NCBI GenBank assembly: GCA_024281675.1
Contig: JAMXAG010000016.1
Coordinates: forward strand, 1-63,501
Length of the DNA: 63,501 nucleotides
Reading direction: 5' to 3'
DNA from: Nitrosomonas sp.
GTDB taxonomy: Bacteria; Pseudomonadota; Gammaproteobacteria; Burkholderiales; Nitrosomonadaceae
Of this stretch, positions 4,989-52,562 are shown piece by piece. Position 1 is the stretch's first letter. Every line of letters starts with the position of its first letter. Below the pieces are notes generated by a model. The model was not told the DNA's origin. It was given only the letters and a program-made list of their open reading frames with translations, and made no database searches. The translations under genes and the position numbers were made by a program.

Positions 4989-7811
4989 ATGATAGCAAGA
5001 TTATCACAGAAGAATCGTTCCATCGCTGATAAGTTACTATTAATTATCTTTGTCAGTCTAGCTTCCTCTATGTTATTAGTCTTTGTTTTGGTAGCAGTTA
5101 ATGAAATTAAAAGCTCACTCAATATTGCGGAAGAGCAACTTAATGGACTCGCACGAGTAACAGCCAATAACTCACAGGCATCCCTAGCGTTCCTGGATAA
5201 TAAGAATGCTCAGGAAACTCTAAATTCATTGCGGCAAATTCCTTCTATCATTGAAGCGTCATTGACCACACAAGATGGTCAAGAAATAGCCAGTCTAATT
5301 AATGAAAAACAAATATGGATTCCTGTTTGGTTGCCGTTTCAAGACATGCATATCATTCAACCTGTTATAGTAGGAGAAGAATATGTTGGCAGTTTGAAAA
5401 TTAAGTATGCACTAGGAACAATGTGGAAACAATTAGGATGGAATCTTATGGTTTCCGCTCTCTCAATGCTGACTGCTTTCATTGCGGCTGCATTCTTAGC
5501 AAAGCGCATGACATCTAGGGTAGTACAACCCATTTACGATCTATCAACAACAGCAGAAAAAGTTTCTCGTTCAGGTCATTATTCTTTCCGTGTCACTCGA
5601 CATATTGAAAACGATGAAGTTGGTACTTTAGTAGATGCCTTTAATAGTATGCTTGAACAAATACAAATTAGAGATAAAGAATTGGTACAGTATCACTCCG
5701 ATTTAGAAAATAAAATTGAAGAACGAACCATAGAATTAAGACAAGCAAAAGAAAATGCTGAGGCAGCTAATTTAGCAAAATCCCAATTCCTGGCTGCAAT
5801 GAGCCATGAAATTCGCACACCAATGAATGGTGTACTTGGAATGGCTGAATTATTGCTGGATACTCCACTAAACGCACAGCAACTTCATTTCATAAATATA
5901 TTACATAATTCAGGTGAGTCATTACTGTCCATTATTAATGATATTCTCGATTTTTCTAAAATAGAGGCTGGTCGTTTCGAATTAGAGGATATAGATTTTG
6001 ATTTATATAAATCAGTCGAAGAAGTTATCGAGCTTTTTTCTGAGCGAGCACATAGCAAGAATCTGGAATTAAACTATCGCATTGACCCGGGTGTCATTGA
6101 ATGGGTTAAGGGAGATCCTACCCGAATAAGGCAAGTACTCGGCAATTTAATTGGGAATGCCATTAAATTCACTGAACGTGGTGAAGTAGTCGTTGATGTA
6201 AGCTTAGACTCGGCTTTCAGTAACACTAAACAAAATGGTAATGAAAATGTCAATCAAATTGGAGTTTGTTTTACTGTCATTGATACTGGAATTGGTATTA
6301 ATCACGACATAATACCACGTTTGTTTCAAGCATTTTCTCAAGCAGATGGATCTACTACTCGTAAGTATGGCGGTACGGGTCTAGGTCTTGCAATATCGAA
6401 ACAACTTGTAGAATTGATGGGTGGAACTGAAATTAAAGTAAACAGTCACCTTGGCAAAGGATCCACGTTTTCTTTCACTTTGCCTTTACTGATAGGAAAT
6501 TGCATTGAATCACAAAGATCAGCGAAACGGGATTCTGAGTTAACTGGGGTTAGGCTTTTAATTGTGGAGGATAATGCCACCAGTCGTGGTATTTTAAGTG
6601 CTTATACAAAATCTTGGGGGATGCTTGTAGACTCGGTATCCAGTGCACAAAAAGCCCTAGATAGCTTGCATGAATCTACTATAAGTCACCAAGCCTATGA
6701 TCTTGTTTTAATAGATATGAAAATGGCCAATATGAATGGCTTAGAGTTGGGGCAGAAGATTAAAGCAAATCAAGATTGGAATAAAATCCCTCTTATTATG
6801 TTGACTTCAACACATTATAAGGGTGAAGCTGACGAAGCAAGGAAAACTGGATTTGCAGTTTATAAAACAAAACCGATTAGAAAGAATGACTTGTATCAAT
6901 GTCTAGTACAGGCAAATTCATTGCCAACTGATGATGAATTATTGCGGTCCACGGATTCTACCTCTCAAGATATTGTGAAACAACCTGATATGCAGTCAGC
7001 ACTTACAACTCAAGGGCATTTGTTGTTAGCAGAGGATAATCCTGTTAATCAAGCAGTTGCTTTGGGAATGTTACGTAAATTTGGTTACACCGTTGATGTG
7101 GTAAAAAATGGACTAGAAGCAATAGATGCCGTGCAACATAAAACTTATGATTTGGTATTAATGGATTGTATGATGCCTGAAATGGATGGATACCGTGCAA
7201 CTACCGAGATTAGACGTCAACAAAGCGCTGGGAGATTGCACCACTTCCCAATCATTGCACTGACTGCCAACGCGATAGAAGGAGATCGAGAAAAATGTCT
7301 GACAACTGGTATGGATGACTATTTAGCGAAACCCATAAAAGCTAAAGACTTGGTCAATATCATTGAATTGTGGCTAGGTAATTCAAAATCAATTCGATCG
7401 AGAAATAATCTTTCAGAGTTAGAGCAATCTAATAATCAAGATTCTATTGATCCCGACGCTCTAGCATCCATTCGTTCTTTGGAAGTTGATTATGGTGACG
7501 AGTTACTCAAACAAGTTATTAGTACCTATCTTGATAATTCCAGCAAATTAATGCAAGCCCTTGAACAAGCATGGAGCATTGGTGATCTTAAAGCCATACG
7601 AATGACATCTCACACACTTAAATCAAGCAGCAGTCAGGTGGGTGCTCATAGCTTGGCTGAGCTGTTTAGAAATGTTGAAAATGAGGCTCGTAATGACATT
7701 TATGATGTGTCTGGTCAAGCATTAGTTGCAATTAAACAGCAATTCTTACAGGCCTGCAAAACATTGAAATCTTATCTGGATTCATTACCAATCAATTCTG
7801 GAATACATTGA
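4989..7811 (+). CDS. Hybrid sensor histidine kinase (HAMP-HisKA-HATPase-REC-REC-Hpt)
   Basis: This is a membrane kinase of 940 residues. Two membrane segments (about 17-38 and 155-175) flank a periplasmic sensor region; a HAMP domain and a coiled coil (about 176-260) follow. The HisKA motif [11 protein letters not shown] puts the phosphoacceptor at His273. HATPase motifs include [16 protein letters not shown] and GGTGLGLAI. Two receiver domains follow (about 520-640 and 675-795; the second has a clear [13 protein letters not shown]), then an Hpt domain with [15 protein letters not shown] (about 875-890). The layout matches BarA-type phosphorelays. The gene follows YfiR copy 2 and stops one base before the GGDEF-EAL gene, so the two are surely co-expressed and probably partners. 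Confidence 0.93.
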
Positions 7812-7812
7812 T

Positions 7813-9561
7813 ATGTCACACCAATCAACCGTCATTATTATTGATGATGATCCTTTGATACGATTGGTCGTCGCAAAAACGCTGCAAGCTGTTGGTATGA
7901 ATACACTTGAAGCTTCAAGCGGCGAAGAAGGATTACAGCTTTTTAAAAATAACAAGGCCGATGCAATACTCCTCGATGTAATCATGCCAACAGGGATAGA
8001 TGGATATACCACTTGTTATGAATTGAGAAATACGCCCCAAGGAAAACACTTGCCAATCCTGATGATGACAGGATTAGAAGATATTGAATCAATTAATAGA
8101 GCCTACGAAGTTGGAGCCACCGATTTTATTACTAAACCAATCAATATTCCCCTGTTAAGTTATCGTGTTCGATACATGCTTAAGGGTAGTAATACTACTC
8201 AGCAATTGTTGCAAAGCGAACAACGCTTGCATCAAATGGCATACTTTGATGACTTAACTGAGTTGCCTAATCGACATTTCTTTAAAGAAAGTTTGCAACA
8301 AATGATTGGCCTAGCACAACGCAAGAAATTAAAGTTAGGGGTATTATTTCTTGATCTTGATGGCTTTAAGCGTATTAATGATACGTTAGGTCATCATCTA
8401 GGTGATTTAGTCCTACAAGCAACAAGCGAACGTTTACAAAAAAGTATTCGAATTAGCGATACATTTGCGCAACCAGTTACTAGTCAAGGCGATATTTCAC
8501 TCGCTCGATTAGGAGGCGATGAATTTACTGCATTGTTACCGTTAATTGAGCGTAATGAAGATGCAGCTATTGTGGCTGAACGCATTCGAATAAAACTGGC
8601 GCAACCAATGATTTTTGGCGAACACGAACTTACGACTACCACCAGTATCGGCATTGCAATCTATCCAGACGATGGTGAGACTACGGAAGATCTACTTAAA
8701 AACGCTGATCTTGCAATGTATTATGCCAAGCGCTCAGGTGGAAACATGTATTGTTATTTTTCCAGCTACATGATGGAAAGGGCAGTACGAAAATTAACCA
8801 TGGAAAGTCATTTGCGTAAGGCAGTTGAACGTGAAGAGTTTTGTCTGCACTATCAACCGCAATTTGATATTGAAAGAGGTAATTTTAACGGTGTAGAGGT
8901 TCTGTTGCGCTGGGAAAATAAAGAATTAGGGAAAATTTCACCCGCTGAATTTATTCCTCTTGCTGAAGAAACTGGACTTATCATTCATATTGGTGAATGG
9001 GTTTTAAGAAAAGCTTGTTATCAAACTAAGGCGTGGTGTGATCAGGGAATTCCTCTTGCCCGTGTCGCAGTTAATGTTTCAGCTGGACAACTTCTTCATA
9101 ATGGCTTTGCTTCTATGGTAAATAGTATATTAGCTGAGACCATGCTGGATCCAGGCATTCTGGAGCTAGAATTGACTGAAAGCGCATTAATCAACGATGT
9201 GGATCTTGTAATCGAAGTATTGAAACAACTCAAGCAAGTTGGCGTACAGCTGGCTATTGATGACTTTGGAACCGGTTATTCAAGCTTAAGTCGATTAATG
9301 AATTTTCCTATTGATCGGTTAAAAATTGATCAGGCTTTTGTTCGTAACCTAGAACAAAATTCAGATAATGGAGCAATTGCTACGGCAATTATCGCAATGG
9401 CTACTAGTATGAATATGAGAGTAACAGCTGAAGGAGTAGAAACTAATACACAATTGAATTTTATGAAAAATAAATCTTGTAATGACGTTCAAGGTTATTT
9501 TTTAAGTAAACCATTACCTACAGATCAGGCGGAGGAGTTTTTCAAACAAAAATGTAAATAG
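7813..9561 (+). CDS. Response regulator with GGDEF and EAL domains
   Basis: The product has 582 residues. A receiver domain (about 5-125, with LLDVIMP at the phosphorylation site) is followed by GGDEF (about 150-315; intact RLGGDEFTAL) and EAL (about 330-575). In the EAL domain the signature reads EVLLRW, a mild variant of EALLRW, while ELTES, DDFGTGYSSL, LKID, AEGVE and QGYFLSKPL are all present, so both cyclase and phosphodiesterase activity look possible. It would make or break c-di-GMP according to phosphorylation by the adjacent hybrid kinase. It is the last gene of the block; the next gene is convergent, 81 bases away. Confidence 0.93.
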   Translation: MSHQSTVIIIDDDPLIRLVVAKTLQAVGMNTLEASSGEEGLQLFKNNKADAILLDVIMPTGIDGYTTCYELRNTPQGKHLPILMMTGLEDIESINRAYEVGATDFITKPINIPLLSYRVRYMLKGSNTTQQLLQSEQRLHQMAYFDDLTELPNRHFFKESLQQMIGLAQRKKLKLGVLFLDLDGFKRINDTLGHHLGDLVLQATSERLQKSIRISDTFAQPVTSQGDISLARLGGDEFTALLPLIERNEDAAIVAERIRIKLAQPMIFGEHELTTTTSIGIAIYPDDGETTEDLLKNADLAMYYAKRSGGNMYCYFSSYMMERAVRKLTMESHLRKAVEREEFCLHYQPQFDIERGNFNGVEVLLRWENKELGKISPAEFIPLAEETGLIIHIGEWVLRKACYQTKAWCDQGIPLARVAVNVSAGQLLHNGFASMVNSILAETMLDPGILELELTESALINDVDLVIEVLKQLKQVGVQLAIDDFGTGYSSLSRLMNFPIDRLKIDQAFVRNLEQNSDNGAIATAIIAMATSMNMRVTAEGVETNTQLNFMKNKSCNDVQGYFLSKPLPTDQAEEFFKQKCK

Positions 9562-26778: not shown

Positions 26779-26997
26779 ATGCATAGACCACCGATTGATG
26801 CTGAAACCAATAATCCTGACATAACAGAAATCATTCAGGAAAAGCTACTCGATGCTGAGATACCGGGCTTCCAGGCTGAATTTGATCCCTTGGAGGCGGA
26901 AAGGCTGGGCGCATTCAAAGAAGATGCTTTGAGTGAGGAAGATGCGCTGGATAGCACAATTGATCATACAGCGGAGGTTCAAGATGAAAGAGGCTAA
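26779..26997 (+). CDS. Small acidic protein of the tra operon
   Basis: The product has 72 residues and is very acidic, with many Glu/Asp and no membrane segment or recognised domain. An AGGAGG-type ribosome site (26767-26772) precedes it well. Its 3' end overlaps the start of the traC-like gene by 14 bases in another frame. RP4 has a small gene, traD, at this place; sequence similarity cannot be judged by eye, so no symbol is given. Confidence 0.6.
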
Positions 26998-29824
26998 GAA
27001 GGCTTTTCATGAACAAGTCGCCGAGAATCTGATTGAGCAACTCAAAAAAGGTGTTGCGCCCTGGCAAAAGCCGTGGAAACCCGGTGATCTGCTTACCATA
27101 TTACCCATGAATCCCACATCCGGTAAACGTTACCGTGGCATTAATAGCTTGAACCTGATGAGCCGTGCGTATACGGATCCGCGTTGGTTGACGTACAAGC
27201 AAGCGATAAGTCTTGGCGCACAAGTGCGCAAAGGTGAAAAAAGCACGCTCGTGCAATACTGGAAATTCACCGATGAACGCATCAAAATCGATGACAACAA
27301 TAATCCTGTACTAAATAGTGAAGGTAATGCTATTAAAGAACAGGTGAGATTGGAGCGTCCCAGGGTGTTTTATGCCGCCGTATTTAATGCGCAGCAGATG
27401 GATAATCTGCCAGAACTCAGTATTAAAGCCCCTGACTGGGATCCACTGGAGCGTGCTGAGCACATATTACAAGCATCCAATGCCGTAATCCATCATGGCG
27501 AGGCTGATCGCGCATTTTACCGACCATCAACCGATAGTATCCACTTGCCCCATAAGCACCAGTTTCCGACCCCCGATCGTTACTACGCAACCGCACTGCA
27601 TGAACTGGGCCACTGGACAGGTCATGAATTGCGCTTAAGTCGTGATCTATCGCATCCATTTGGAAGCGAAGACTATGCCAAAGAAGAATTGCGCGCTGAA
27701 ATTGCCAGCATGCTGCTTAGCGGTGAATTGGGTATCGGTCATGATCCCGGGCAGCATGTGGCTTATGTGAGTTCATGGATCAAAGCGCTACAGGAAGATC
27801 CGACAGAAATATTTCGTGCTGCCACTGATGCTGAAAAAATCCAGGATTATGTACTGGCATTGTCACAACAACAGGAAATTGCAAAGAAAGTTGATGTAGA
27901 GGAGGCAATCAAAATGGATCAAATCAAGCAAAACACCGCCACTTATTTGCAGAATCTCTCGCCTGATCTGGCAACTATCGTTACCAGCAATATCCAACGG
28001 TTTAATGATCTGACACAAGCCATGGCAAAAAAAGATCAGGATGCCATCATTTTGGTTGCTGATGCACTCAAGTTTTCGAGGGGCGGCGGCATTGATAATC
28101 TGGAGTTTGAAGAAGTGTCAGAAGAAAAACTGGGCTTTGGAATTCCGGCTGACTGGAATGGACAATTGCAGATTCAGGGCAACGTGATTCAAACCGATGA
28201 AAATGGTATTGAGTCTATAGTATCCGCTGATTCAATAAACATGGAGCCACAATTTTGGGGCGTGACTATGCAGCGTGATGATCAGACCTTTCAATGGGTT
28301 AGAGACTGTGAGTCCAAACAGGAAGCGCAAGATTTAACCAATCTGCTCGCACTCATTGATGTTGCTGCCGAAAAGAATGAACATGAAAAGGCCGCTAAGC
28401 TTGTCAACATCCATGAAAATCGCATTCGAAATGATCCAATTAGCACTGGAGTATCGATATCAGGAGCCAAGACCGAACAAAACGATGGCAATGCTCGTCA
28501 ATATTTGATTGTTCCTTATCGTGATAAGGATTTAGCAAAAGCCGCTGGGGCTCGTTGGGACAAAAAAGCCCGTGCCTGGTATGTAGGGCCAGAAGCAGAT
28601 ATTCAGACATTGCAACGCTGGCTGCCGGAGAATGTTTCCAGACAGCAGGAACCGGCTATCGATCCTCACGTGGAATTTGCTGAATTGCTGCGCGCTCAAG
28701 GTTGCCGAGTTGATGGCAATCATCCGGTGATGGATGGCAGCAAACACAGAATTAAAGTTGAGGGTGATAAGTCGGGTGAGAAATCAGGTTTTTATGTGGC
28801 GCATCTGGATGGTCATCCTGCCGGATATTTCAAGAACAATCGAACCGGTATTGAAATTCGCTGGAAGGCTAAGGGGTATTCGTTAACGGATGAGCAGAAA
28901 GCCGAGCTGATCGCCCAAGCTGCTATCAAGCAGCAGAACAGAAAAGCCGAACAACATGCACAGCAAATTAAAGTTGCTGATGCAATTCAGCAATTGCTGA
29001 CTATCGCACCTGCTGCCGATTCCGAACATCCTTATCTGAAAGAGAAGCATGCCCGGCCAGGCGATTTAAGAATCGTGCCGCAGAATGTGCATGATTTGCC
29101 AACCGATTCAATCATCAAAATTGGTCAGAACTGGCAGGAAGTCAGGCTACTACGTGAGGAAAATCCAGACAGTATTGTACTGACTGCCGGTGATTTATTG
29201 CTGGCTGTACAAGATATTCATGGTCAGATCTGGAGTGCGCAAACGATACAACCCAGTGGTGCAAAGCTTTTTGCAGCGGGTAGCAAGAAAGAGAATAACT
29301 TTCATGTGGCGGGTAATGCAGGTCAGGGATTGGATGCAGCAATTAACAAATTACCTGCCATTGTAATTGCTGAAGGTTATGCCACCGCAGATACATTATC
29401 TCAGGGGCTGAATTATCCTGTCATAGCTGCATTTGATTCAGGTAACTTGCCCAAAGTTGCGCAGGATTTACATCATAAATACCCGCACAAGCCAATCGTT
29501 ATCGCAGGCGACGATGATTATCATCTGGAATCCACCCTTGGCAAAAATCCCGGCAAGGAAAAAGCGTTGGAAGCAGCGACATTGGTAAATGGGGCTGTGG
29601 TATTTCCGATTTTTGCGCCGGGTGAACGGAACTCAAGGAAATTAAATGATTTTAATGATCTCGCCAATAAAAGCGCGTTGGGTATTGAGGCAGTCAAACG
29701 ACAAGTTGGATCGGTTGTTGAAAAAATATCTCAGCAGGCTAAGCAGGACAGCTTATTGAAGTTACAAGTCCCTATTGAACCTAAGCAGCAGGAAATCAAG
29801 CAAAAACGTGCATTGACCAGGTAA
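26984..29824 (+). CDS. traC: TraC-type primase with ArdC-like zincin and Toprim
   Basis: The product has 946 residues from the ATG at 26984, which follows CGGAGG; an upstream in-frame start would lie inside the previous gene. The N-terminal domain (about 1-290) is ArdC-like, with [21 protein letters not shown] and the metalloprotease motif [16 protein letters not shown]5710-type segment ([21 protein letters not shown], about 505-550) follows. The C-terminal part (about 640-920) is Toprim-like: [14 protein letters not shown] and [10 protein letters not shown]4 TraC primes the transferred strand and is sent to the recipient; the ArdC part is thought to protect incoming DNA from restriction. Confidence 0.88.
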
Positions 29825-29844
29825 TCTTTTAAGGAGACCATAAG

Positions 29845-30966
29845 ATGCGCGATAATATGCTGAAGATTCCAGGAAACCCATTCGATTCTGATGAAGGTGA
29901 TCTTTATGAAAAAATTGAGACTCGTCCCGGTACTACAGACAAGCAAAAGAAAGCAGGAAGAGGTGCCTATACAGAACTGCTTGAAGCTCATGCTCGATGG
30001 GCAGGTGGCACCTTATTGGGTTGTGATTTCCCAAAAGACTTCAAAGAAAAAGGAGGAACCACTTTCCTGAATCAGCGCATCAAGTCAGGCCATGATCTGG
30101 CAATAATGACGCAAATATTACGCGATCCGCGTTATGAGACACTGAGAATCTTCTATACCCGTATGAATCGCATCATTCATCATACGGCTGTGAGTTCCAG
30201 ATTGCCGGGTGCAGTCTATTTGGAAAAGATTGGGCATGCCAAACATGATCTGGGTGTTTTAGTAGGAAAGACTAGACGACATGTTAAAGCAGATGGTTAC
30301 TGGTTATTGCATAATCATCCATCGGGTAGTGCTACGCCATCGAGTCAGGATGTCAGACTCACAGAGATACTGGCATCAACTGTTCCGAGTTTCAAAGGCC
30401 ATGTGGTAATCAATACCAGTCAATACAGTGTCATTGATAAAGACGGTCATGTCGATTTTGTGGCTTGGATGGGTGATCAGGCAGGAGGTTATCAGAATAA
30501 TCATTATAAAAGTCATGAGCTGCTTTTGGAGAAAATAGCCTCACCGGAGGATCTGGCAAAGATAGGTCATGCTTTAAAAAAGCGAGATCAGTTTTTTAAC
30601 TTCATAGGGCTTAGTGCAACAGGTTTTGTATTGTCGTTAAGTGAGTTACCCCTGTCTGTATTGGAGCGTCCTCAAAATCTGCTTCTGGCACGACTACAAA
30701 ATTTTGCACGCAATTCTGGCGTCAATACGGTATTTGCCATCACGAACACCAATGATTACAGACACCCGGTATTATCCAAAGCCTGTGAAGCTGGCATCTT
30801 AAAAGATGTGCTAACCGTAGAGGGCTCTGATTATCGTTCATTGCGGGAAGAAGGATTATTTGCGTCAATGCCCGGTGAAATAAGCGCCATTCTTAGAAAG
30901 CCCAGATCCTTTGTGAAGGAAGATGGCGGATTAACCAAGTTAAGGGGCAAAGGACGCAATAGGTAG
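29845..30966 (+). CDS. RadC-like JAB-domain protein
   Basis: The product has 373 residues. The central JAB/MPN motif reads WLLHNHPSGSATPSSQDVRLTE (about 152-173): the His-x-His, Pro-Ser-Gly and downstream Asp residues of the RadC family are all present. Residues 1-90 and the C-terminal 170 are not assigned. RadC-like proteins are frequent on integrative elements, with roles in recombination or anti-restriction suggested but unproven. It is preceded by AAGGAG and lies 20 bases after traC, closing the left transfer operon. The convergent cassette starts 37 bases on. Confidence 0.8.
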   Translation: MRDNMLKIPGNPFDSDEGDLYEKIETRPGTTDKQKKAGRGAYTELLEAHARWAGGTLLGCDFPKDFKEKGGTTFLNQRIKSGHDLAIMTQILRDPRYETLRIFYTRMNRIIHHTAVSSRLPGAVYLEKIGHAKHDLGVLVGKTRRHVKADGYWLLHNHPSGSATPSSQDVRLTEILASTVPSFKGHVVINTSQYSVIDKDGHVDFVAWMGDQAGGYQNNHYKSHELLLEKIASPEDLAKIGHALKKRDQFFNFIGLSATGFVLSLSELPLSVLERPQNLLLARLQNFARNSGVNTVFAITNTNDYRHPVLSKACEAGILKDVLTVEGSDYRSLREEGLFASMPGEISAILRKPRSFVKEDGGLTKLRGKGRNR

Positions 30967-31003: not shown

Positions 31004-33604
31004 TTAGAAAAGCTTTAGTTGTGTTTGCTGTGCAAAAACTGAAAGTGATATTTCTAGATCCCCTTTTTTTCTAATTGTGGTGATTTCCGCACTTATGGTT
31101 TTATCTCCAATAAAAAATTGCGGTGTTTCGCTCTTCCATGAGTCAAGTACAATTGGTGCTGTAACTTTTAATAAAATTTCCTTAGTTGCCGCATGTTCTC
31201 TTTTATCAGTCCATTTATTTATTCTAGTTTCGGAACGACGATAAGGTGCATAATTAGAGACACTCTGAAATTCGTTTAGAGGCAGTGAATTTTGAGAAGA
31301 ATCTAAATTGTATTTTGTAGAAGGCAATGGATTTGTGGTTTTTACGAGAACAACACCATCCTTAAATCCACCAACTTTATTTAGTTTTCTTTCCTTTGCT
31401 TTTGTGACTTCGGACATGTCTGCTTTTAAACTATTTAATATCCCATCTATAACTTCTTGGACATCTGATAATTCTTCGATTATTGAGTCATGATCTTTCG
31501 CATCTAAAACTTCAAGAGATTCTTCTACCAGTTTTTCACATAAAGCTCTTAATAGGTCATCACCTATTAAACGTTCAGCTTTTACAAGTTCTCCACCCGA
31601 TTCAATTTTTTGAGGGATCTTGTCTCTAACTAACTTATTAAATACCTGCTGCTCATTATCACCTTTAAATGTAGTACCTGCTTCTACATTTGCGCCCGTT
31701 TGAAGAAGTTGATAATAAGCATGAGAAAGAGTAGCCCCTTCTAGAAAAATAACAGCATCAATTTTTTTAACTAGCCCACCAATTTTTTGTAATGCATTTC
31801 TATCACGTAACAATATTTCATCTTGAGGTTTTACAAGCACTCTTCTAATACTCTTGTCATTCGAATCTACAAGTGCTTCTAGTTTTGCAATATCTTCAAA
31901 ATTTTTAATTTCAAATATTTTATCAAAATGCGTTTTATTTCTATGACCATGACTTCTTTGTATTTTTTTTAAGTCATATTCTTCATGATACCAAGGTAAA
32001 ACCGAAGCTGTAGAAAATTCCTTTGGGACACCAACAAACCACATGATGCTTAGTGGCTTATCTTCTTGAGTCGATATCAGTCTAGAATCACAAGCTATTT
32101 TTCGGATCCATTTTTTATATCTAATGCTGCTTTTCCAATCATACGGTTTGGAAATTGCTTGATTTATCCATGTACCATTTTCATTTGGGGCAACACAATT
32201 ACGTTTAAAGTTCTTCTTCTCTGTGAGAACGTAATTGTCGATTGATGTACTAGCCTTATCGATATCTGAATATAGTGTGTCAACAATATAATTATCATGT
32301 GAGTTGTAATACAATCCTTCGGGAATACCCCATAAAGCTTCAATTTGGACTTTCCTTTCCCCTGGTGCAGAGAAAGCAAAAGCTGATGCTTCAGCAGGAA
32401 TAAAGTTATGAAAAATGAAAGCTAATTCTATAGGCCCTGAAACTTGACTCAAAAGAATTTTAGATTTACTTATTAACCATTCTTTTGCATCTTCAATATT
32501 TCTGACTTCATGTGTGCGAGGAAGAAGCTGTTTATTTGATAGTTCATCACTAACAATATCGGTTCTTATAACCAATGAGGATCTTACCAATTCACCAATA
32601 TCGTGTAATAACTCTTCTTGGAAATTTCCATTAGAAATTTCTTTTATTACTCCCTGATTATCTAGAACATATAAACTGGTTATCGGAAGATCAAGTTCCA
32701 TATAAGTAAAAACATTGTTAATCTTATGATACTTCCTACCATGTTCTTTCGATATTTTAGAAAGTATTTTGGGCACGAAGGAAAAATGTGATTGATTATT
32801 TTTTTTACAGTGTTTTACAGGATCAAAATTTCCTAATAAACTTTCAACATCAGCCTGAACCAAATATATGATTTTGCCATCCCATACCCATTCAAAATGC
32901 AATCGACATTGATGTGCAGTTCCCCATGATGCTGCTTTCTTTAAAACATTTTGTAGAGATATTTTGATATTACAATCTAGGGGTTTTAGCGCAGACTCAA
33001 AATTATTTTCTTTACTTCGCCAATTGCGCAAATTAATTTGAAATGGCTCTTTTTCATTTTCTATTTCACCTAACCAATCTCTTGATTCTTTGGAGCATCT
33101 TCGTTCATTTGATAGATGACCTTTGGCAGAAACCAACGAGTATTTCTGAATAATAAGATTTATTTGTTCGTTTCTTAGCGTTTCATCTGAGATGATCTGT
33201 ACTAGCCAACTTATTAGGTCATCAGCTAGTTTATTGGATCTTGCTATTTTTGTATGGAATTTTCCTCGATTCTGGATAGATTCGTTTATCCCGGAAGATC
33301 TCAAAGTTAGATGCGTTTCATTATCTAATCCAGTCTTTTTAAGTGCAAAAGTTAGTTCGAGAAACCATTCTGCAATTAGCAAATGAAGTTGTGAGTGATC
33401 CATCTTGCTTGCAGATGCTACAAGCTCTCCAGAGACTACAAAAAATGGGAGTGTCCATAAAGATGGAATACAAGCAAGACCGAAAGCTTTTTCACCTACT
33501 AATTCAGTTGAAACTTGATCGGGTAATAATTCAATAATTTCATCTTTATGTACCAATAGAATATTATTGATAGGAGTTAATCCATTAATAATATTTTTTG
33601 ACAT
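31004..33604 (-). CDS. PEP-synthase-like ATP-grasp / His-swivel / MazG-like fusion
   Basis: The product has 866 residues; the ATG at 33604 is preferred over a GTG one codon earlier. Residues 35-450 look like a PEP synthase/pyruvate phosphate dikinase ATP-grasp domain: VGEKAFGLA, LTLRSSG, FEWVWDGKIIYLVQAD, FIPAEASAFAFSA and VQIEALWGIPEGLY. Residues 590-645 resemble the swivelling phosphohistidine domain (LEGATLSHAYYQL, His629). Residues 656-740 are MazG-like (NKLVRDKIPQKIESGGE, EKLVEESLEV, IIEELSDVQEVIDGIL). No PEP-binding barrel is seen, so it resembles rifampin phosphotransferase in layout more than PEP synthase. It is the last gene of a four-gene operon. The substrate is unknown. Confidence 0.72.
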   Translation of the reverse strand: MSKNIINGLTPINNILLVHKDEIIELLPDQVSTELVGEKAFGLACIPSLWTLPFFVVSGELVASASKMDHSQLHLLIAEWFLELTFALKKTGLDNETHLTLRSSGINESIQNRGKFHTKIARSNKLADDLISWLVQIISDETLRNEQINLIIQKYSLVSAKGHLSNERRCSKESRDWLGEIENEKEPFQINLRNWRSKENNFESALKPLDCNIKISLQNVLKKAASWGTAHQCRLHFEWVWDGKIIYLVQADVESLLGNFDPVKHCKKNNQSHFSFVPKILSKISKEHGRKYHKINNVFTYMELDLPITSLYVLDNQGVIKEISNGNFQEELLHDIGELVRSSLVIRTDIVSDELSNKQLLPRTHEVRNIEDAKEWLISKSKILLSQVSGPIELAFIFHNFIPAEASAFAFSAPGERKVQIEALWGIPEGLYYNSHDNYIVDTLYSDIDKASTSIDNYVLTEKKNFKRNCVAPNENGTWINQAISKPYDWKSSIRYKKWIRKIACDSRLISTQEDKPLSIMWFVGVPKEFSTASVLPWYHEEYDLKKIQRSHGHRNKTHFDKIFEIKNFEDIAKLEALVDSNDKSIRRVLVKPQDEILLRDRNALQKIGGLVKKIDAVIFLEGATLSHAYYQLLQTGANVEAGTTFKGDNEQQVFNKLVRDKIPQKIESGGELVKAERLIGDDLLRALCEKLVEESLEVLDAKDHDSIIEELSDVQEVIDGILNSLKADMSEVTKAKERKLNKVGGFKDGVVLVKTTNPLPSTKYNLDSSQNSLPLNEFQSVSNYAPYRRSETRINKWTDKREHAATKEILLKVTAPIVLDSWKSETPQFFIGDKTISAEITTIRKKGDLEISLSVFAQQTQLKLF

Positions 33605-33618
33605 CACTTTTATGTACT

Positions 33619-34194
33619 TTATTTTTTATGATGTAAGCTTGTAGGACCAAAAAGAACCATTGCAATTTCATACATTTTTCCGATTGCTTGGTCAGCAAAA
33701 TAACCAACTAAGAATCCAATGCCTATAGCCGATGCTGCTGAATGACTAAATTTAATGGTATCTGACCCAATATAACTTGCGCTAATTAATGTACCGACAG
33801 CAAAAGATATGCTTATAGACATAAAAGGTGATAACAATCTCCAAATTTGTCTGTCCAGGTGCCAATATCCACGCGCAACTACCCGGTACATGTACTTTAT
33901 CGAAAAGGTTGTTCCCCCTAATAGTCCCGCAAAACAATAGTAGCTGTAAATACGAAAAATTTTTGGATCTAATATTTCTGGATTAAAAAGAAAGTTTTCG
34001 AGATATCTATTCCACGTTAAAAGTATTCCGAGAAGTGACATAAGAAGCAGAATAAATAGATAGATAGACTCGAACCTTATAATTTGCATCGCATCTTTAG
34101 GATATTTGCTTTGCCATTCATATTGTTGCCTTCCATCAGTGGGCTCAGCCGTGCTCGCATTGGGATCATGTGCTTCATGGCTATTGTTACTCAT
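33619..34194 (-). CDS. Unknown membrane protein of the cassette
   Basis: The product has 191 residues and matches no family that I recognise. A polar 40-residue N-terminus (His/Asp/Ser/Thr-rich) is followed by four probable transmembrane helices (about 41-62, 85-101, 122-141 and 147-167) and a short basic tail ending HHKK. It lies 14 bases before the ATP-grasp/MazG gene and 17 bases after the HIT gene, so it belongs to the same operon. By context it could be the membrane effector or anchor of the system; the sequence alone does not say. Confidence 0.72.
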   Translation of the reverse strand: MSNNSHEAHDPNASTAEPTDGRQQYEWQSKYPKDAMQIIRFESIYLFILLLMSLLGILLTWNRYLENFLFNPEILDPKIFRIYSYYCFAGLLGGTTFSIKYMYRVVARGYWHLDRQIWRLLSPFMSISISFAVGTLISASYIGSDTIKFSHSAASAIGIGFLVGYFADQAIGKMYEIAMVLFGPTSLHHKK

Positions 34195-34211
34195 CGGATT
34201 TATTCCAGAAA

Positions 34212-34844
34212 CTAGCTTAGGCCTTGCAGCTCTAGTGCTGTTCGTTGGGTTTTTTCAAGGAGGGGAAAATTCTTGTAGTCGCTAATAAGCTCATTTCCTG
34301 TTTTCCTTGCCAATATTTTTCTAAAGAATTGAGAAACTGGTCTATCAACTATGTGCAAATACCCATTAATTTTGCTAAGAGTTGGTGGTGTTTCACTATA
34401 AAAAAGGTAGTCTCGGCCACATGATTTATTGGTAATTTCACTTGCGATACATTTTTGCCACGGTAACCTAGTCTCTTTTAAATCTTCTAATAGAGATTCA
34501 ACAAATGGGACGAAATGAAAATGAGCATGATCAACGCCGCATCCTGTTGGAGAGCCGCTATATGATGCACCATGCTCAAACATTACTGGCCGACCAAATT
34601 TTTCTTCAATATATTTATAAATTTTTAGTGCTAATCTTACAAATTCATCATCTTCGTACAGTTCTGACATGTCATATATATGTTTTCTTGGAACAATCAT
34701 TACCCATCCATCTATAAAAGCCCCAATTGAAGGAATTACCATGTAATTGGGCGTTTCATGAATTGGTTTATCGACAATTCCGTTTATATGTCTGCTTTTT
34801 ACGATTGAGCACAACCTGCATAAATCAGTTGTTGTACTTTTCAT
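34212..34844 (-). CDS. HIT-family nucleotide hydrolase/transferase
   Basis: The product has 210 residues from the ATG at 34844 (a GTG at 34856 is the alternative). The N-terminal DLCRLCSI looks like a half zinc site. The histidine triad is GVDHAHFHFVPF (about 112-123), with HxHxH followed by hydrophobics as in HIT nucleotide-binding hydrolases; GWVMIVPRKHIYDMSEL is the usual upstream strand. A C-terminal extension of about 80 residues has no assignment. HIT proteins cleave nucleotide-phosphoramidates, dinucleotides or similar compounds. Here it lies between a DNA methylase and the membrane protein in a tight operon. Confidence 0.82.
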   Translation of the reverse strand: MKSTTTDLCRLCSIVKSRHINGIVDKPIHETPNYMVIPSIGAFIDGWVMIVPRKHIYDMSELYEDDEFVRLALKIYKYIEEKFGRPVMFEHGASYSGSPTGCGVDHAHFHFVPFVESLLEDLKETRLPWQKCIASEITNKSCGRDYLFYSETPPTLSKINGYLHIVDRPVSQFFRKILARKTGNELISDYKNFPLLEKTQRTALELQGLS

Positions 34845-34887
34845 TTTTGAACTCACTAATAAAAAATGGTCAGTTAAGCTTAATAAT

Positions 34888-35853
34888 TTACACTGGAATG
34901 AAATTATTTGTTTGATTCATAAATTTTGATGACTTAGCATCAAAATCTCTTATTGAAATTCCACTGTGATAATAGTTCGTATCAAACTTTGGCAAAGTTT
35001 TCAGGTTAGTTAATAGTAGCTCTCTTCCAATAAATGAATTCCCACCAATTGGATGGGTTGAGTATGTACTATCAATTATGCAGCCGTTAACTTGTTTTCC
35101 AGACAGATACATATCACGAATAATTTTTGAATCATCATACGATAAAACCCAAGGAATATCGCAAAAATTATGTAAATATTCATATAATGCAGCGTGTTCA
35201 TTTTCATCAAATACATATCTATAAAGTCTATCCGCCTTGTTGTAGTAGGGGGGGTCAAAATAAAGAAAACATGAGGAAGTAATGCTTTGACAGATAAAAT
35301 TCCTCCAAGGTTTATTTTCAATAAAATTTACCCTATCTGCATAACTAGACAATTTTTCTATCCGTGCAGCCAATTTTTCTCGATTGAATCTACATCCAAT
35401 TGTCCAGCGATCCTGTTTTCTTCCTCCAATAGGACCTGCATGCTTATGTAATAAACCAGAAAAAGAGGTTCTGTTGAGATAGAGGCATTGGAATGCCTGT
35501 TCTCTAAGTGTTTGAGGAGTTTTTGATTTTTGATAATCCCAGTATTCAAGTGTCAAAGGAGCGGTCATTACTTGCTCGCAAAGCCATTTGCTATCGGAGG
35601 TAGAAAAAACAGCTTTCCATAGAGATGCGATCATTGGATCTAAGTCATTTAGACTAATTGTTTCAACTGCATCAGCTTCCAGTAGGTTTAGAGAAATTGA
35701 AGCTCCACCACAGAATGGTTCAATAAATGTTTTCGGTTGCAGTTTGTTCAGCTTAAAAATAGACACGAGTATTTTAGCATGTCGGCCTTTTCCACCCGGG
35801 TATCTCAATAAACTGCCAGAAAGGGATCTAATTTTGAGAGGTTCTGATGCCAC
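34888..35853 (-). CDS. Dam-type N6-adenine DNA methyltransferase
   Basis: The product has 321 residues, starting with GTG at 35853 (GGTGA upstream). It is a class D12 adenine methylase: LRYPGGKGRHAK at residues 16-27, AdoMet motif I TFIEPFCGGASISL (42-55) and the catalytic DPPY at 200-203 in LYFDPPYYNKADRLYRY. The middle segment (about 120-180, LYLNRTSFSGL) is normal for Dam relatives. Target specificity cannot be read. There is no cognate endonuclease next to it; it is the promoter-proximal gene of the cassette, 43 bases before the HIT gene. Confidence 0.9.
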   Translation of the reverse strand: MASEPLKIRSLSGSLLRYPGGKGRHAKILVSIFKLNKLQPKTFIEPFCGGASISLNLLEADAVETISLNDLDPMIASLWKAVFSTSDSKWLCEQVMTAPLTLEYWDYQKSKTPQTLREQAFQCLYLNRTSFSGLLHKHAGPIGGRKQDRWTIGCRFNREKLAARIEKLSSYADRVNFIENKPWRNFICQSITSSCFLYFDPPYYNKADRLYRYVFDENEHAALYEYLHNFCDIPWVLSYDDSKIIRDMYLSGKQVNGCIIDSTYSTHPIGGNSFIGRELLLTNLKTLPKFDTNYYHSGISIRDFDAKSSKFMNQTNNFIPV

Positions 35854-36745: not shown

Positions 36746-36881
36746 CGTAACGGAAGCCATCGGATGAAGTCGAAAGTAACAAGCGGGCGTTAATGATAAA
36801 TGTTCCATCGATTGCCTTGGCATCGGTCGCGTTATCGTATGTAACGGGTTCAATGCGCAGTTCGTCAATGGAGATCGTCAT
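36741..36881 (-). pseudogene. 5' fragment of a GNAT acetyltransferase gene
   Basis: The fragment has an ATG at 36881, inside the last codons of the kinase gene (overlap with its stop), followed by about 45 codons reading MTISIDELRIEPVTYDNAT...RLLLSTSSDGFRYE. It resembles the N-terminus of small GNAT/streptothricin-acetyltransferase-like proteins and is then cut at about 36741, where IS1595 sequence begins. The overlap with the kinase stop implies a former two-gene resistance operon. The GNAT call rests on a short stretch. Confidence 0.5.
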
Positions 36882-37704
36882 GATTATTCGCTTCCGTTGA
36901 CAGGGCTTGCAGTGCTAGTTCAGCAATGGAAAAATCCGAATCTGCGTTTTGGCGATCATCATCTTCCAAAAACCATGAAGCCGATAAGCCAGCATATGCC
37001 AATGTCCACTGCAATAAGCGCCGTCGTTCCAAATTAGCAGCTTGCGCAATCACGTAAGATTGGCGAATAAATCTGATGGGATCAGTGACCGATGGTAATT
37101 CCGGATTGCACAGAAGATTCGCATAATCATAGCCGCGCTCACCGATTATGCGCTTCGGGTCGATGGCAAGCCAACCGCGCGAACCAAAATCTAATACGTT
37201 TTCATGATGTATGTCACCATGCAGCACTACAATGTCGTGCGGTGAGGCCAACAACTCGCGGGCGGCAGCTAAACTTTCAAGAAGCACGCCCCCTTCGCGC
37301 TGTGCAGCCGACTCTAACGCCTCAAACCAAATATTTAATGGGATAAGCTCTGGCGGCGGCATAGATCGGGGTTGGTGTAGTTTGGCGATTACATTGCAAG
37401 CAATGCGGCTAGCCTCATCATCTTGACCATTGCATGCCATCTGCATGAGAGAATTAGCTCCTTGAGCCCGTTCCATCAGTAGTGCATCACCTTCGTAAGC
37501 ATACACTCGCGCTGCGCCATCGCCATTCCACCATTGCATGACTAAACCGCCAAATTTTTCTTCGGTATCCATGACAATTTTCAGCATGGCAGGATTGCCA
37601 TTTATGTGCCCATCCATACGCACTGGCAATAAATAGCTGCCGCGCGTGACAATGGGGTCGCCATCGGGAAGGAGATTCCATCGTCTTAAATAAGGTTCAA
37701 ACAT
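36865..37704 (-). CDS. APH(6)-like aminoglycoside/hydroxyurea phosphotransferase
   Basis: The product has 279 residues with a kinase fold of the StrB/APH(6) type. The N-terminal LRRWNLLPDGDPIVTRGSYLLPV and the ATP-lobe LKIVMDTEEKFGG are followed by the catalytic loop VLHGDIHHENVLDFG (about 178-192) and the metal motif LAIDPKRIIGERGYDYA. By family it could phosphorylate streptomycin-like aminoglycosides or hydroxyurea. The length is normal. A cut GNAT gene overlaps its 3' end, and IS debris lies on both sides, so the gene arrived as part of a resistance-type segment. Confidence 0.83.
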   Translation of the reverse strand: MFEPYLRRWNLLPDGDPIVTRGSYLLPVRMDGHINGNPAMLKIVMDTEEKFGGLVMQWWNGDGAARVYAYEGDALLMERAQGANSLMQMACNGQDDEASRIACNVIAKLHQPRSMPPPELIPLNIWFEALESAAQREGGVLLESLAAARELLASPHDIVVLHGDIHHENVLDFGSRGWLAIDPKRIIGERGYDYANLLCNPELPSVTDPIRFIRQSYVIAQAANLERRRLLQWTLAYAGLSASWFLEDDDRQNADSDFSIAELALQALSTEANNHDDLH

Positions 37705-50999: not shown

Positions 51000-52562
51000 A
51001 TGAATAACAATCCTCTTTCTGAGTTAACGCCGATCTTTTTTTTGCAAACCTTCATTCTTGAACTGATGCATGCCAGCGAACAGCAGGGACAAAAGCATTG
51101 TGAAGAGTTGATTGAGCATATAGCCCAAACTGCAGGATGTTTTTTTGAAGAAACTTATCGAGAAAATACTAATAAAAATGAACAGCTCGATAATGAAAGC
51201 TATACCGAACTAATACTCGGCATCAAAAACAATATCGGAGGTAAATTTTCGCTGGTCTCCAGCAATCAGGACTGTATTACAGTTACTAATTCTCGCTGTC
51301 CTTTCGGTGAACAAGTTACTAATTTTCCTGAATTATGTAGAATGACTTCCAGTGTATTTGGAGGTATCGCGGCCAGAAACTTTGGTTACGCCAAAGTTGA
51401 AATCAAAAAAAGTATAGCCCGCAAAGATGGCAAGTGTGATGTATGTATTTACACGAATCCACATGCAGCAAAAGGCCATGCGGGAATGGAATATACCGAT
51501 TCGACACCAGTTAAGGAAATCAACGATACGAATGAATTGCAGTGCCGAATTGAAACTAGTATGCAGAGACTTTGGCAGAAACAAAATAGGCAAATATCAG
51601 AAAAACATCAGCCTCCTGCAATCATCGCAAAATCACCAATGATGCAGAAAATACTGCAATCAATTGAGATTATTGCCCCTACTATGGCAACGGTTCTGAT
51701 TCAGGGTCAAACAGGCGTAGGTAAGGAGCTTATAGCACGTGCCATACATGCAATGAGCGATCGCTACAATAAGCCATTCATCGCCATTAACTGTGGCGCG
51801 ATTCCAGAAAGCTTGATTGAAAGCAGCTTATTCGGACATGAAAAAGGCGCTTTTACAGGAGCCCTCGAGGTACACCACGGTTTCTTTGAGCGAGCCGAAG
51901 GCGGTACTTTATTTCTTGATGAAGTCGATTCATTGTCGCCAGCTGCACAAACCAGATTGCTTCGTGTAATCCAGGAAGGAGAATTGGAGAGAGTTGGCGG
52001 CAAGCAAACCTTGGCGGTTGATGTAAGGATCATTTCAGCAACAAATCAGAATCTGGAAGGACTTGTTAAACAGGATCTCTTCCGCAATGACCTATACTAC
52101 CGCATCAATGTAGTGCGTTTAAGTATTCCTCCCTTGGTCGAGCGACCGGAGGATTTACCTTATCTTGTGCAATTGATCATTCAGCGATTGAATAAGCGTT
52201 ATAACAAACAGGTTAAATCAGTAAGCCGTGAAGTTATGCAGAAAATCCGCACTTATCATTGGCCAGGCAATGTTCGTGAGTTAGAAAACATCCTTGAGCG
52301 TAGCATCTTGTTTGTTAGTGGCAAAGAAATGACTGAATTGGATATAGAGCTTCCAACTAAAACAAAAAGTATTGGTGAATGGAAAGACGAAAAAGAATAT
52401 GCTCTTACCAAAATTGAAAAATCATTCCTTGAAACAGCTTTGAAACAACACCATGGAAATATAAAAAAAGTGTCTGAGAACATGGGAATTACTTCACGTG
52501 CTGTTTATGCCAAACTAAAAAAATACGAAATAAACTTGGCAGAATTCCGTATTTTTGATTGA
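51000..52562 (+). CDS. XylR/DmpR-class sigma54 activator with V4R sensor
   Basis: The product has 520 residues. The N-terminal sensory part (about 1-165) ends in a V4R-like stretch (NFGYAKVEIKKSIARKDGKCDVCIYT) with Cys residues. The AAA+ domain has GQTGVGKELIARAIH (Walker A), the sigma54-contact loop SLFGHEKGAFTGA, EGGTLFLDEVDS (Walker B) and the R-finger NDLYYRINV. A Fis-type HTH ends the protein (about 480-505, NIKKVSENMGITSRAVYAKLKK). It is divergent from the hydrolase gene. Such activators bind a small aromatic or sulfur-containing ligand through V4R; the ligand here may be CS2, sulfide or a derivative. Confidence 0.93.
   Translation: MNNNPLSELTPIFFLQTFILELMHASEQQGQKHCEELIEHIAQTAGCFFEETYRENTNKNEQLDNESYTELILGIKNNIGGKFSLVSSNQDCITVTNSRCPFGEQVTNFPELCRMTSSVFGGIAARNFGYAKVEIKKSIARKDGKCDVCIYTNPHAAKGHAGMEYTDSTPVKEINDTNELQCRIETSMQRLWQKQNRQISEKHQPPAIIAKSPMMQKILQSIEIIAPTMATVLIQGQTGVGKELIARAIHAMSDRYNKPFIAINCGAIPESLIESSLFGHEKGAFTGALEVHHGFFERAEGGTLFLDEVDSLSPAAQTRLLRVIQEGELERVGGKQTLAVDVRIISATNQNLEGLVKQDLFRNDLYYRINVVRLSIPPLVERPEDLPYLVQLIIQRLNKRYNKQVKSVSREVMQKIRTYHWPGNVRELENILERSILFVSGKEMTELDIELPTKTKSIGEWKDEKEYALTKIEKSFLETALKQHHGNIKKVSENMGITSRAVYAKLKKYEINLAEFRIFD

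Follow-up and report, generated by a model that had tools for sequence, protein, structure and literature searches.

Several described systems resemble parts of the locus analysed here. PD-lambda-5 is a tested anti-phage system that gave protection against nine of ten phages, and its finders call it a compacted prophage version of a restriction-modification plus abortive infection (RM+Abi) system (Vassallo et al. 2022, PMC9519451); the host they used was of the laboratory E. coli K-12 kind without mrr. Enzymes of the rifampin phosphotransferase (RPH) family act on antibiotics, and the related HpeHI, a two-component dikinase of which HpeI is the ATP-grasp half, acts on aromatics (PMC12167813). 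MazG is listed by DefensePredictor (2026) among predicted, untested defence domains (PMC13092281). We describe a four-gene cassette on a conjugative element of Nitrosomonas sp. (assembly GCA_024281675.1, contig JAMXAG010000016.1), in a stretch of 63,501 nucleotides that was analysed as a whole (hereafter the window). The conserved core of the cassette is three genes, encoding a HIT-family protein, a four-helix protein (TM) and an 867-amino-acid (aa) fusion protein (FUS), and one branch also carries a D12-class adenine methylase (D12). We give an even chance to this cassette being a mobile, methylation-guarded defence module whose effector arm works by nucleotide or phosphate chemistry. The broader claim, that it acts in defence against phage or mobile DNA, is likely, because the genes are linked and mobile, their active-site residues are intact and the methylase belongs to a defence family; the details of a nucleotide- or phosphotransfer-based effector are offered tentatively.

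Four open reading frames (ORFs) on the minus strand fill positions 31004-35853 of the window (ORF list). D12 (34888..35853; 321 aa) is a putative DNA N6-adenine methylase of the PD-lambda-5_B family with the motifs LRYPGGK, EPFxGGA and DPPYY, and it is followed by HIT (34212..34856; 214 aa; HxHxH; possible ATG start at 34844), TM (33619..34194; 191 aa; probably a membrane protein, with a conserved loop W..DR..WR...P) and the multi-domain FUS (31004..33607). The last three are called the trio below. The intergenic gaps are 43, 17 and 14 bases with ATG starts, or 31, 17 and 11 bases with upstream GTG starts, and the GC content is 33-37% across 31-36 kb as against 44-49% across the transfer genes at 23-31 kb.

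Homologous loci were collected by scanning one genome per species with a FUS profile, an incomplete census in which the best 80 of 506 confirmed relatives were kept; 17 of the 80 are full or long FUS matches, and the other 63 (L034 on), which match only at and around the MazG part, were left out. To the scan loci were added those of a named plasmid and of further genomes. Loci cut at contig ends (L003/L011 of G034, L019 and L125) were excluded, and duplicates or pieces (L001, L002, L005, L010, L012, L013, L109, L117 and L120-L123) were dropped. HIT and TM cluster with FUS in all 21 loci that are uncut by contig ends; since the window, L017 and L018 are near-identical and L004 and L032 are close relatives, the distinct loci number about 12 with D12 and 6 without. 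The hosts are Pseudomonadota, Thermodesulfobacteriota, Nitrospirota and a Clostridia metagenome-assembled genome (MAG), and include Nitrosomonas, Marinagarivorans, Achromobacter, Dyella, Methylumidiphilus, Desulfovibrionales, Nitrospira, Roseobacter, Thalassospira, Shinella and Caulobacter. Full FUS is rare, with one occurrence each in samples of 299, 397, 317 and 316 genomes (not counting the own or centre genome, nor weak and partial matches such as those in G095, G306 and G199) and two among 36 other genomes of the genus Nitrosomonas. A reverse search with TM found a Caulobacter cassette as its sole relative in 72,556 plasmid records, and in 369 genomes the window's own copy and G741, the latter set aside as a cassette because its 14 kb contain a weak TM relative but neither HIT nor FUS. 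A stand-alone MazG protein in G646 was likewise rejected as a member. The MazG-like matches in G095:C23 and G306:C121 (L007 and L006) lie within open frames of ~1000 aa and are perhaps other MazG fusions.

The FUS tree, of 21 rows, splits into two branches (100/100). One branch, represented by 13 rows and counted with L017 (a near-copy of the window, off the tree), has D12 in all of its 14 loci, and the other has it in none of its seven, five of which are Alphaproteobacteria; a locus found later (G1108) again holds HIT-TM-FUS and no D12. Where D12 occurs, its position shifts: it is upstream of the trio in some loci, downstream on the opposite strand in L020, L024, L027 and L029, divergent in L021, between TM and FUS in L028, and divergent with two genes between in G103, while in L029 HIT-TM is itself divergent from FUS. 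As a rough yardstick for chance proximity, the D12 profile was run over 12 cassette-bearing genomes (~55 Mb), where five of 12 matches lay outside the cassette, about one per 11 Mb. Because the linkage survives rearrangement, the cassette genes very likely work together, and we are highly confident that they form one functional unit; the three genes, with D12 in one branch, have been inherited and moved as a unit with their active-site residues kept. The earlier note on this DNA, made from the sequence alone, had described four minus-strand genes with gaps of 43, 17 and 14 bases that looked more AT-rich than the tra genes, which is borne out, the gaps given the ATG starts, and had named homologues that fail to co-occur as a refutation; the genes do recur together, in several phyla and in shuffled order. 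Its picture of a four-gene system is right about a real unit and needs correcting to a three-gene core, the methylase belonging to one branch.

The methylase of the cassette is not new and appears to belong with the PD-lambda-5_B family. It matches PADLOC PD-Lambda-5_B (PDLC04018) at E 3e-70 and Pfam MethyltransfD12 at E 3.1e-21, its profile matches 7m6b (1e-33), DpnM (2e-11) and Dam (3e-7) in the PDB, and 11 of the 12 tallied motif residues are kept in 12 of 12 sequences (alignment A9), the Tyr of DPPY in 11 of 12. No ORF of at least 60 aa in the window matches a home-made profile of the A component of PD-lambda-5 at E 1e-4. Elsewhere, D12 proteins of this type adjoin PD-Lambda-5_A in L100 and L101, and in G103 they do so across an insertion sequence (IS), so that D12, IS, PD-lambda-5_A and the trio stand consecutively. 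The home-made PD-Lambda-5_A profile was built from these three A proteins, which PADLOC had identified. Eight PD-Lambda-5_B matches other than the window's were found in 200 genomes; five of them lie near a PD-Lambda-5_A-like protein, which is directly adjacent in L103, L104, L105 and L107 (home-made profile) and one gene away in L111 (PADLOC-confirmed). Among the remaining three, one is beside an AAA ATPase, one, partial, is beside Wadjet JetABC, and one, whose flanking genes lay outside the PADLOC scan, has no such match. The first of these (L112, 5974-8505) joins a PD-lambda-5_B-type D12 to an AAA ATPase akin to PARIS AriA, Septu PtuA and Gabija GajA and is a possible further methylase-effector pairing; the second (L113) is a partial D12 of the family next to jetABC.

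The cassette methylases are not gathered in a single group in the D12 tree, where good support is limited to 6 of 19 inner branches. The window's D12 joins L020 and L021 and falls outside the main cluster, to which most PD-lambda-5 methylases belong. A single clade of cassette D12 proteins was rejected, as the tree needs three changes and 500 of 500 shuffles are as low, so that more than one replacement of D12 may have taken place. We read this as one self-marking methylase family that serves several effector arms, of which HIT-TM-FUS is an undescribed one.

The cassette has moved recently. The four genes of the window and of Nitrosomonas ureae Nm13 are 99.8% identical, with 11 differences in 4850 bases, as against 84-93% identity in 500-base bins of the transfer region (22.0-29.5 kb), a difference that indicates recent block transfer between Nitrosomonas species; identity is 95% in the bin at 36.5 kb and 91% in that at 37.0 kb, and the highly similar block, at about 29.5-36.5 kb, somewhat exceeds the cassette. 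A third Nitrosomonas (G034) shows no differences from 30,655 up to window position 32001, where its contig ends, and its transfer-region bins are 82-96% identical. In two Caulobacter copies (L004 and L032) the only common DNA in the parts compared is a 3.76-kb stretch with the trio, 88% identical; a 618-aa protein and a GNAT protein that neighbour the cassette of L004, on a Caulobacter plasmid, were accordingly rejected as parts, as L032 shares only 5558-9314. Genes for integrases or recombinases occur no more than 1.2 kb from the cassette in L023, L025, L026 and L029, and in L020 HsdM and a YhcG/PDC-S02 nuclease lie 6-8 kb upstream. Contigs L017 (JAFDXA010000076.1) and L019, labelled as a Bacteroidetes MAG, agree with the window at 99.4-100% identity over long stretches and are probably mis-binned. 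A phage home for the trio was considered and rejected, although HIT and TM match PHROG families: tblastn against 50,697 phage records gave no match with FUS, HIT, TM or the TM of L030, and viral-contig scans (profiles A1, A8 and A7) gave no confirmed relative.

To the left of the cassette in the window lie a relaxase, a type IV secretion system (T4SS) coupling protein, a large ArdC/zincin protein and a RadC-like protein. The last two, an ArdC-type antirestriction/zincin polyvalent protein and the RadC-like protein, occupy 26933-30966 and directly adjoin it, and anti-defence and putative defence genes thus share one conjugative element. To the right, at ~1 kb, an APH(6)/hydroxyurea-type aminoglycoside kinase gene (36865-37704; Pfam 1e-80) lies in a region where the two Nitrosomonas copies agree at 91-98% per 500-base bin, as against 99.8% for the cassette, and because of this lower identity it seems to have a different history. 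A protein at 51000-52562 with C-terminal similarity to PADLOC RtcR/PspF (AAA-HTH) is probably an ordinary sigma-54 regulator. A repeat search gave no clear boundary repeats around the cassette; promoter-like sites there number 17 as against 21.5 in shuffles, and terminator-like sites 4 as against 2.9.

This mobility also suits an addiction module, in which D12 would be the antidote and HIT-TM-FUS a poison released upon loss of the element and its methylation, so that the cassette would stabilise the conjugative element and not act against phage. The cassette has transfer genes as neighbours, conjugative elements of Nitrosomonas have exchanged it recently, it is AT-rich cargo, and its logic would resemble that of restriction-modification. 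The seven loci of the D12-less branch would be without an antidote, however, and copies elsewhere belong to contigs as large as 3.39 Mb (G103) and 1.10 Mb (L026), not only to small mobile replicons; we consider this explanation unlikely.

FUS was modelled with AlphaFold2 on 15 homologues (pLDDT 78, pTM 0.55), and residues of FUS, HIT and TM were tallied over alignments of 15 loci (A6-A8). A probable first ATP-grasp-like domain (residues 16-255; 32843..33562, minus strand, as are all FUS segments) carries Lys40, Arg103, Glu239 and Gln251, which are invariant (15/15) and which we take to be the counterparts of the RPH nucleotide-binding set. An ATP-grasp domain of the RPH type follows (residues 280-548; 31964..32770), supported by profile and fold matches: the whole model retrieves rifampin phosphotransferase 5hv2 (E 5e-9) and HpeI 9goj (E 1e-8) in Foldseek, matches that cover one domain's worth of residues, and a four-row profile (A2) matched rifampin phosphotransferase 5hv6 in the PDB (E 0.005, profile positions 378-499). 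The 15-row profile A6 did not reproduce that sequence match, and the RPH-type assignment therefore rests on Foldseek and motifs; on these grounds the domain is assigned to the RPH/PEP-synthase type. Its residue Met522, kept in 15 of 15 homologues, occupies a position at which Glu is presumably usual. The N-terminal and middle parts of FUS look related in HHalign (E 2-3e-4 over 105 columns; six controls, E 0.06-0.7), so that FUS probably carries two tandem ATP-grasp domains, at an HHalign probability of only 40-45%.

Next comes a phosphohistidine swivel-like domain (residues 560-645; 31673..31930), modelled as alternating strands and helices with a helix from residue 628. His629 (codon 31721-31723) and Gly624 are invariant (15/15), residue 625 is Gly in nine, Ser in four and Ala in two homologues, and the GGxLSH-type motif resembles the swivel motif given in PMC12167813; judged by motif and secondary structure, FUS is predicted to hold a swivel domain with a phosphorylatable His. 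The MazG / phosphoribosyl-ATP-pyrophosphohydrolase-like domain (residues 655-760; 31328..31645) scores 12.5 bits in Pfam against a cut-off of 21.3, with a weak Pfam PRA-PH match (0.2) and a match to PHROG 5164 (E 6e-4). Its acids E695, E696, E699, E712 and D715 (EExxE..ExxD) are intact in 15 of 15 homologues, and these metal-binding residues mark it as a putative MazG-type nucleoside triphosphate (NTP) pyrophosphohydrolase; 24 of 25 plasmid matches of FUS are annotated as NTP pyrophosphohydrolase, nearly all aligning to this part only. A C-terminal beta-rich domain (residues 778-862; 31022..31276; pLDDT about 44-74) has no role assigned. No PEP barrel was recognised in FUS, no RPH-like rifampin- or phenol-binding domain was recognised, and no separate acceptor-binding domain was matched; the MazG or first ATP-grasp-like domain may serve instead.

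With RPH and HpeI as its closest folds, FUS could alternatively be an RPH-like dikinase that renders some toxic compound harmless (a nucleoside antibiotic, perhaps) in a resistance or detoxification operon in which HIT, MazG and the membrane protein help and D12 is a passenger. The APH(6) kinase gene 1 kb away agrees with this. D12 has been kept in all 14 loci of one branch despite rearrangement, though, FUS has no recognised RPH-like substrate-binding domain, and MazG and HIT are in our judgement unusual partners for resistance; we rate detoxification as rather improbable.

HIT scores just below the Pfam cut-off (E 7e-4, 20.6 bits against 21.5), and its profile matches HIT proteins in the PDB (E 7e-5). 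In its triad H112 and H114 are kept in 15 of 15 and H110 in 11 of 15 homologues, the HxHxH being complete in the window, and by this triad it is assigned to the HIT superfamily. These proteins form a subfamily of their own, marked by the signature EHG..C..HxHxH and by SQ.FR near the C-terminus, and in all 21 loci, a set gathered by way of FUS, they adjoin TM. TM is modelled with AlphaFold2 (pLDDT 81) with long helices at 33-61, 77-108, 113-138 and 153-182, the last kinked at 166; its W..DR..WR...P loop residues are invariant (15/15), it gave no PDB fold match at E 0.001, and judged from its sequence it probably spans the membrane. TM matches PHROG 22917 (8e-11) and HIT matches PHROG 23000 (1e-8), both families without an assigned function. 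Plasmid HIT proteins of Lactococcus and Parabacteroides were rejected as members because they have other gene partners; the Parabacteroides plasmid carries a cluster of thyX, an AAA ATPase, HIT, MazG and dihydrofolate reductase (L098, 2244-7530).

The protein assignments proposed in the earlier note hold at this level. They comprised a Dam methylase, a HIT enzyme, a fusion with PEP-synthase-type ATP-grasp motifs, a phosphohistidine-like His629, a MazG-like part, the lack of a PEP barrel, and a four-helix membrane protein, of which the helices are seen in our model and the membrane placement comes from sequence; to these we add a probable doubling of the ATP-grasp part.

Nucleotide phosphates are substrates for each of the three enzyme types, and the distant HIT-MazG pair of the Parabacteroides plasmid adjoins thyX and dihydrofolate reductase genes, as one would see if the cassette were a housekeeping nucleotide-salvage operon that is on mobile DNA by chance; FUS is rare and patchy, however, and the cassette is mobile and linked to a defence-type methylase, which makes salvage very improbable. 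The slightest chance goes to DNA hypermodification, with FUS, HIT and MazG making a modified nucleotide or installing a DNA mark with D12: a jumbo-phage review suggests that MazG-like triphosphatases may remove unmodified nucleotides in modified-base phages (PMC7824862), but the four-gene cassette contains no glycosyltransferase, thymidylate-synthase-like or base-exchange enzyme, and its membrane protein would have no obvious role.

We return to the methylation-guarded defence module. The D12 methylase would mark the DNA of the host and of the carrier element as self, and marked DNA would hold off, or would not trigger, the trio. Unmarked foreign DNA, or a cell that has lost the mark, would be sensed, releasing the HIT-TM-FUS arm. 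FUS may then act as a small-molecule dikinase, its ATP-grasp part loading a phosphate onto His629 and leaving AMP, and the phosphate might pass from His629 to an acceptor, probably a nucleotide handled by the MazG domain of FUS and by HIT. Alternatively or in addition, the MazG domain could destroy NTPs. HIT would make, remove or read the product, and the product, or a drop in ATP/dNTP, would stop phage replication, with TM as effector or anchor at the membrane. In the D12-less branch the trio would rely on another cue or mark. That a methylation mark guards against an effector arm with no recognisable nuclease which makes and reads, or consumes, a nucleotide-phosphate signal, and that this is a new class of immunity, is possible, at somewhat less than an even chance.

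Several observations weigh against this account. Seven of the 21 loci have no nearby D12, and the cut locus L125, on the D12 side of the tree, has none in 8.7 kb downstream, its upstream side being cut. Four of five D12-less genomes searched whole lack a D12 of the PD-lambda-5_B family at E 1e-5; the fifth (G589) has one elsewhere, beside PD-lambda-5_A. The D12-less branch is the main difficulty for a simple model: it shows that the methylase is not indispensable to the trio, and because of it self-marking by a PD-lambda-5_B-type D12 cannot be the whole logic. FUS and D12 distances are correlated (Mantel r 0.45, p 4e-4), whereas those of HIT and D12 (r -0.03, p 0.52) and of TM and D12 (r 0.18, p 0.24) are not, and the test was therefore rejected as proof of co-evolution. 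Among 11 selected flanking proteins from nine cassette loci, three have strong PADLOC defence matches, in L009 and L020 only. No nuclease, DNA-binding domain or sensor was recognised in the cassette. Finally, detoxification fits the enzyme equally well, because the RPH family and HpeHI act on antibiotics and aromatics. The defence role raised in the earlier note is strengthened by co-occurrence across phyla, by integrases near several copies and by other defence genes near two, and is still to be put conditionally; a nucleotide-modifying activity, its other suggestion, is plausible from the intact active sites.

Compared with catalogued systems, HIT, TM and FUS match no family of PADLOC-DB 2.0.0 at E up to 1 and give sub-threshold matches only in Pfam/NCBIfam. 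Searches of Pfam, PADLOC, NCBIfam and PHROGs revealed in them no nuclease of the kind that a type II restriction-modification system would show. Full-text searches of open-licence literature gave no description of the HIT-TM-FUS set among the papers listed, and the main text of DefensePredictor has no 'HIT domain', 'histidine triad', 'ATP-grasp' or 'phosphotransferase' (PMC13092281). The methylase arm is of a known kind and the effector arm has no counterpart in the catalogues and literature searched, and there is a fair chance that HIT-TM-FUS is categorically new; the earlier note's view of an undescribed system applies to the set and not to its methylase. If the defence reading is true, the cassette adds to phage defence an effector chemistry (phosphohistidine dikinase, NTP pyrophosphatase and HIT) that is absent from the catalogues searched, coupled to a methylase family already shown to be protective in E. 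coli with another partner, and the substrate of FUS could reveal a new nucleotide signal or toxin.

The likenesses to described systems are each partial. With the RPH and HpeHI dikinases, FUS has in common the ATP-grasp fold and a swivel His with a GGxxSH-like motif, and it differs from them in its probable tandem ATP-grasp, in the MazG and beta domains after the swivel, and in its partners HIT and TM. With MazG-type pyrophosphatases it shares the same acids, but in a domain that is fused to a dikinase-like enzyme and scores below the Pfam cut-off. With PD-lambda-5 the cassette shares the B component, the D12 methylase, and it differs in carrying HIT, TM and FUS instead of PD-lambda-5_A, which suggests a testable idea: one self-marking methylase family with interchangeable arms, namely PD-lambda-5_A, an AAA ATPase or HIT-TM-FUS.

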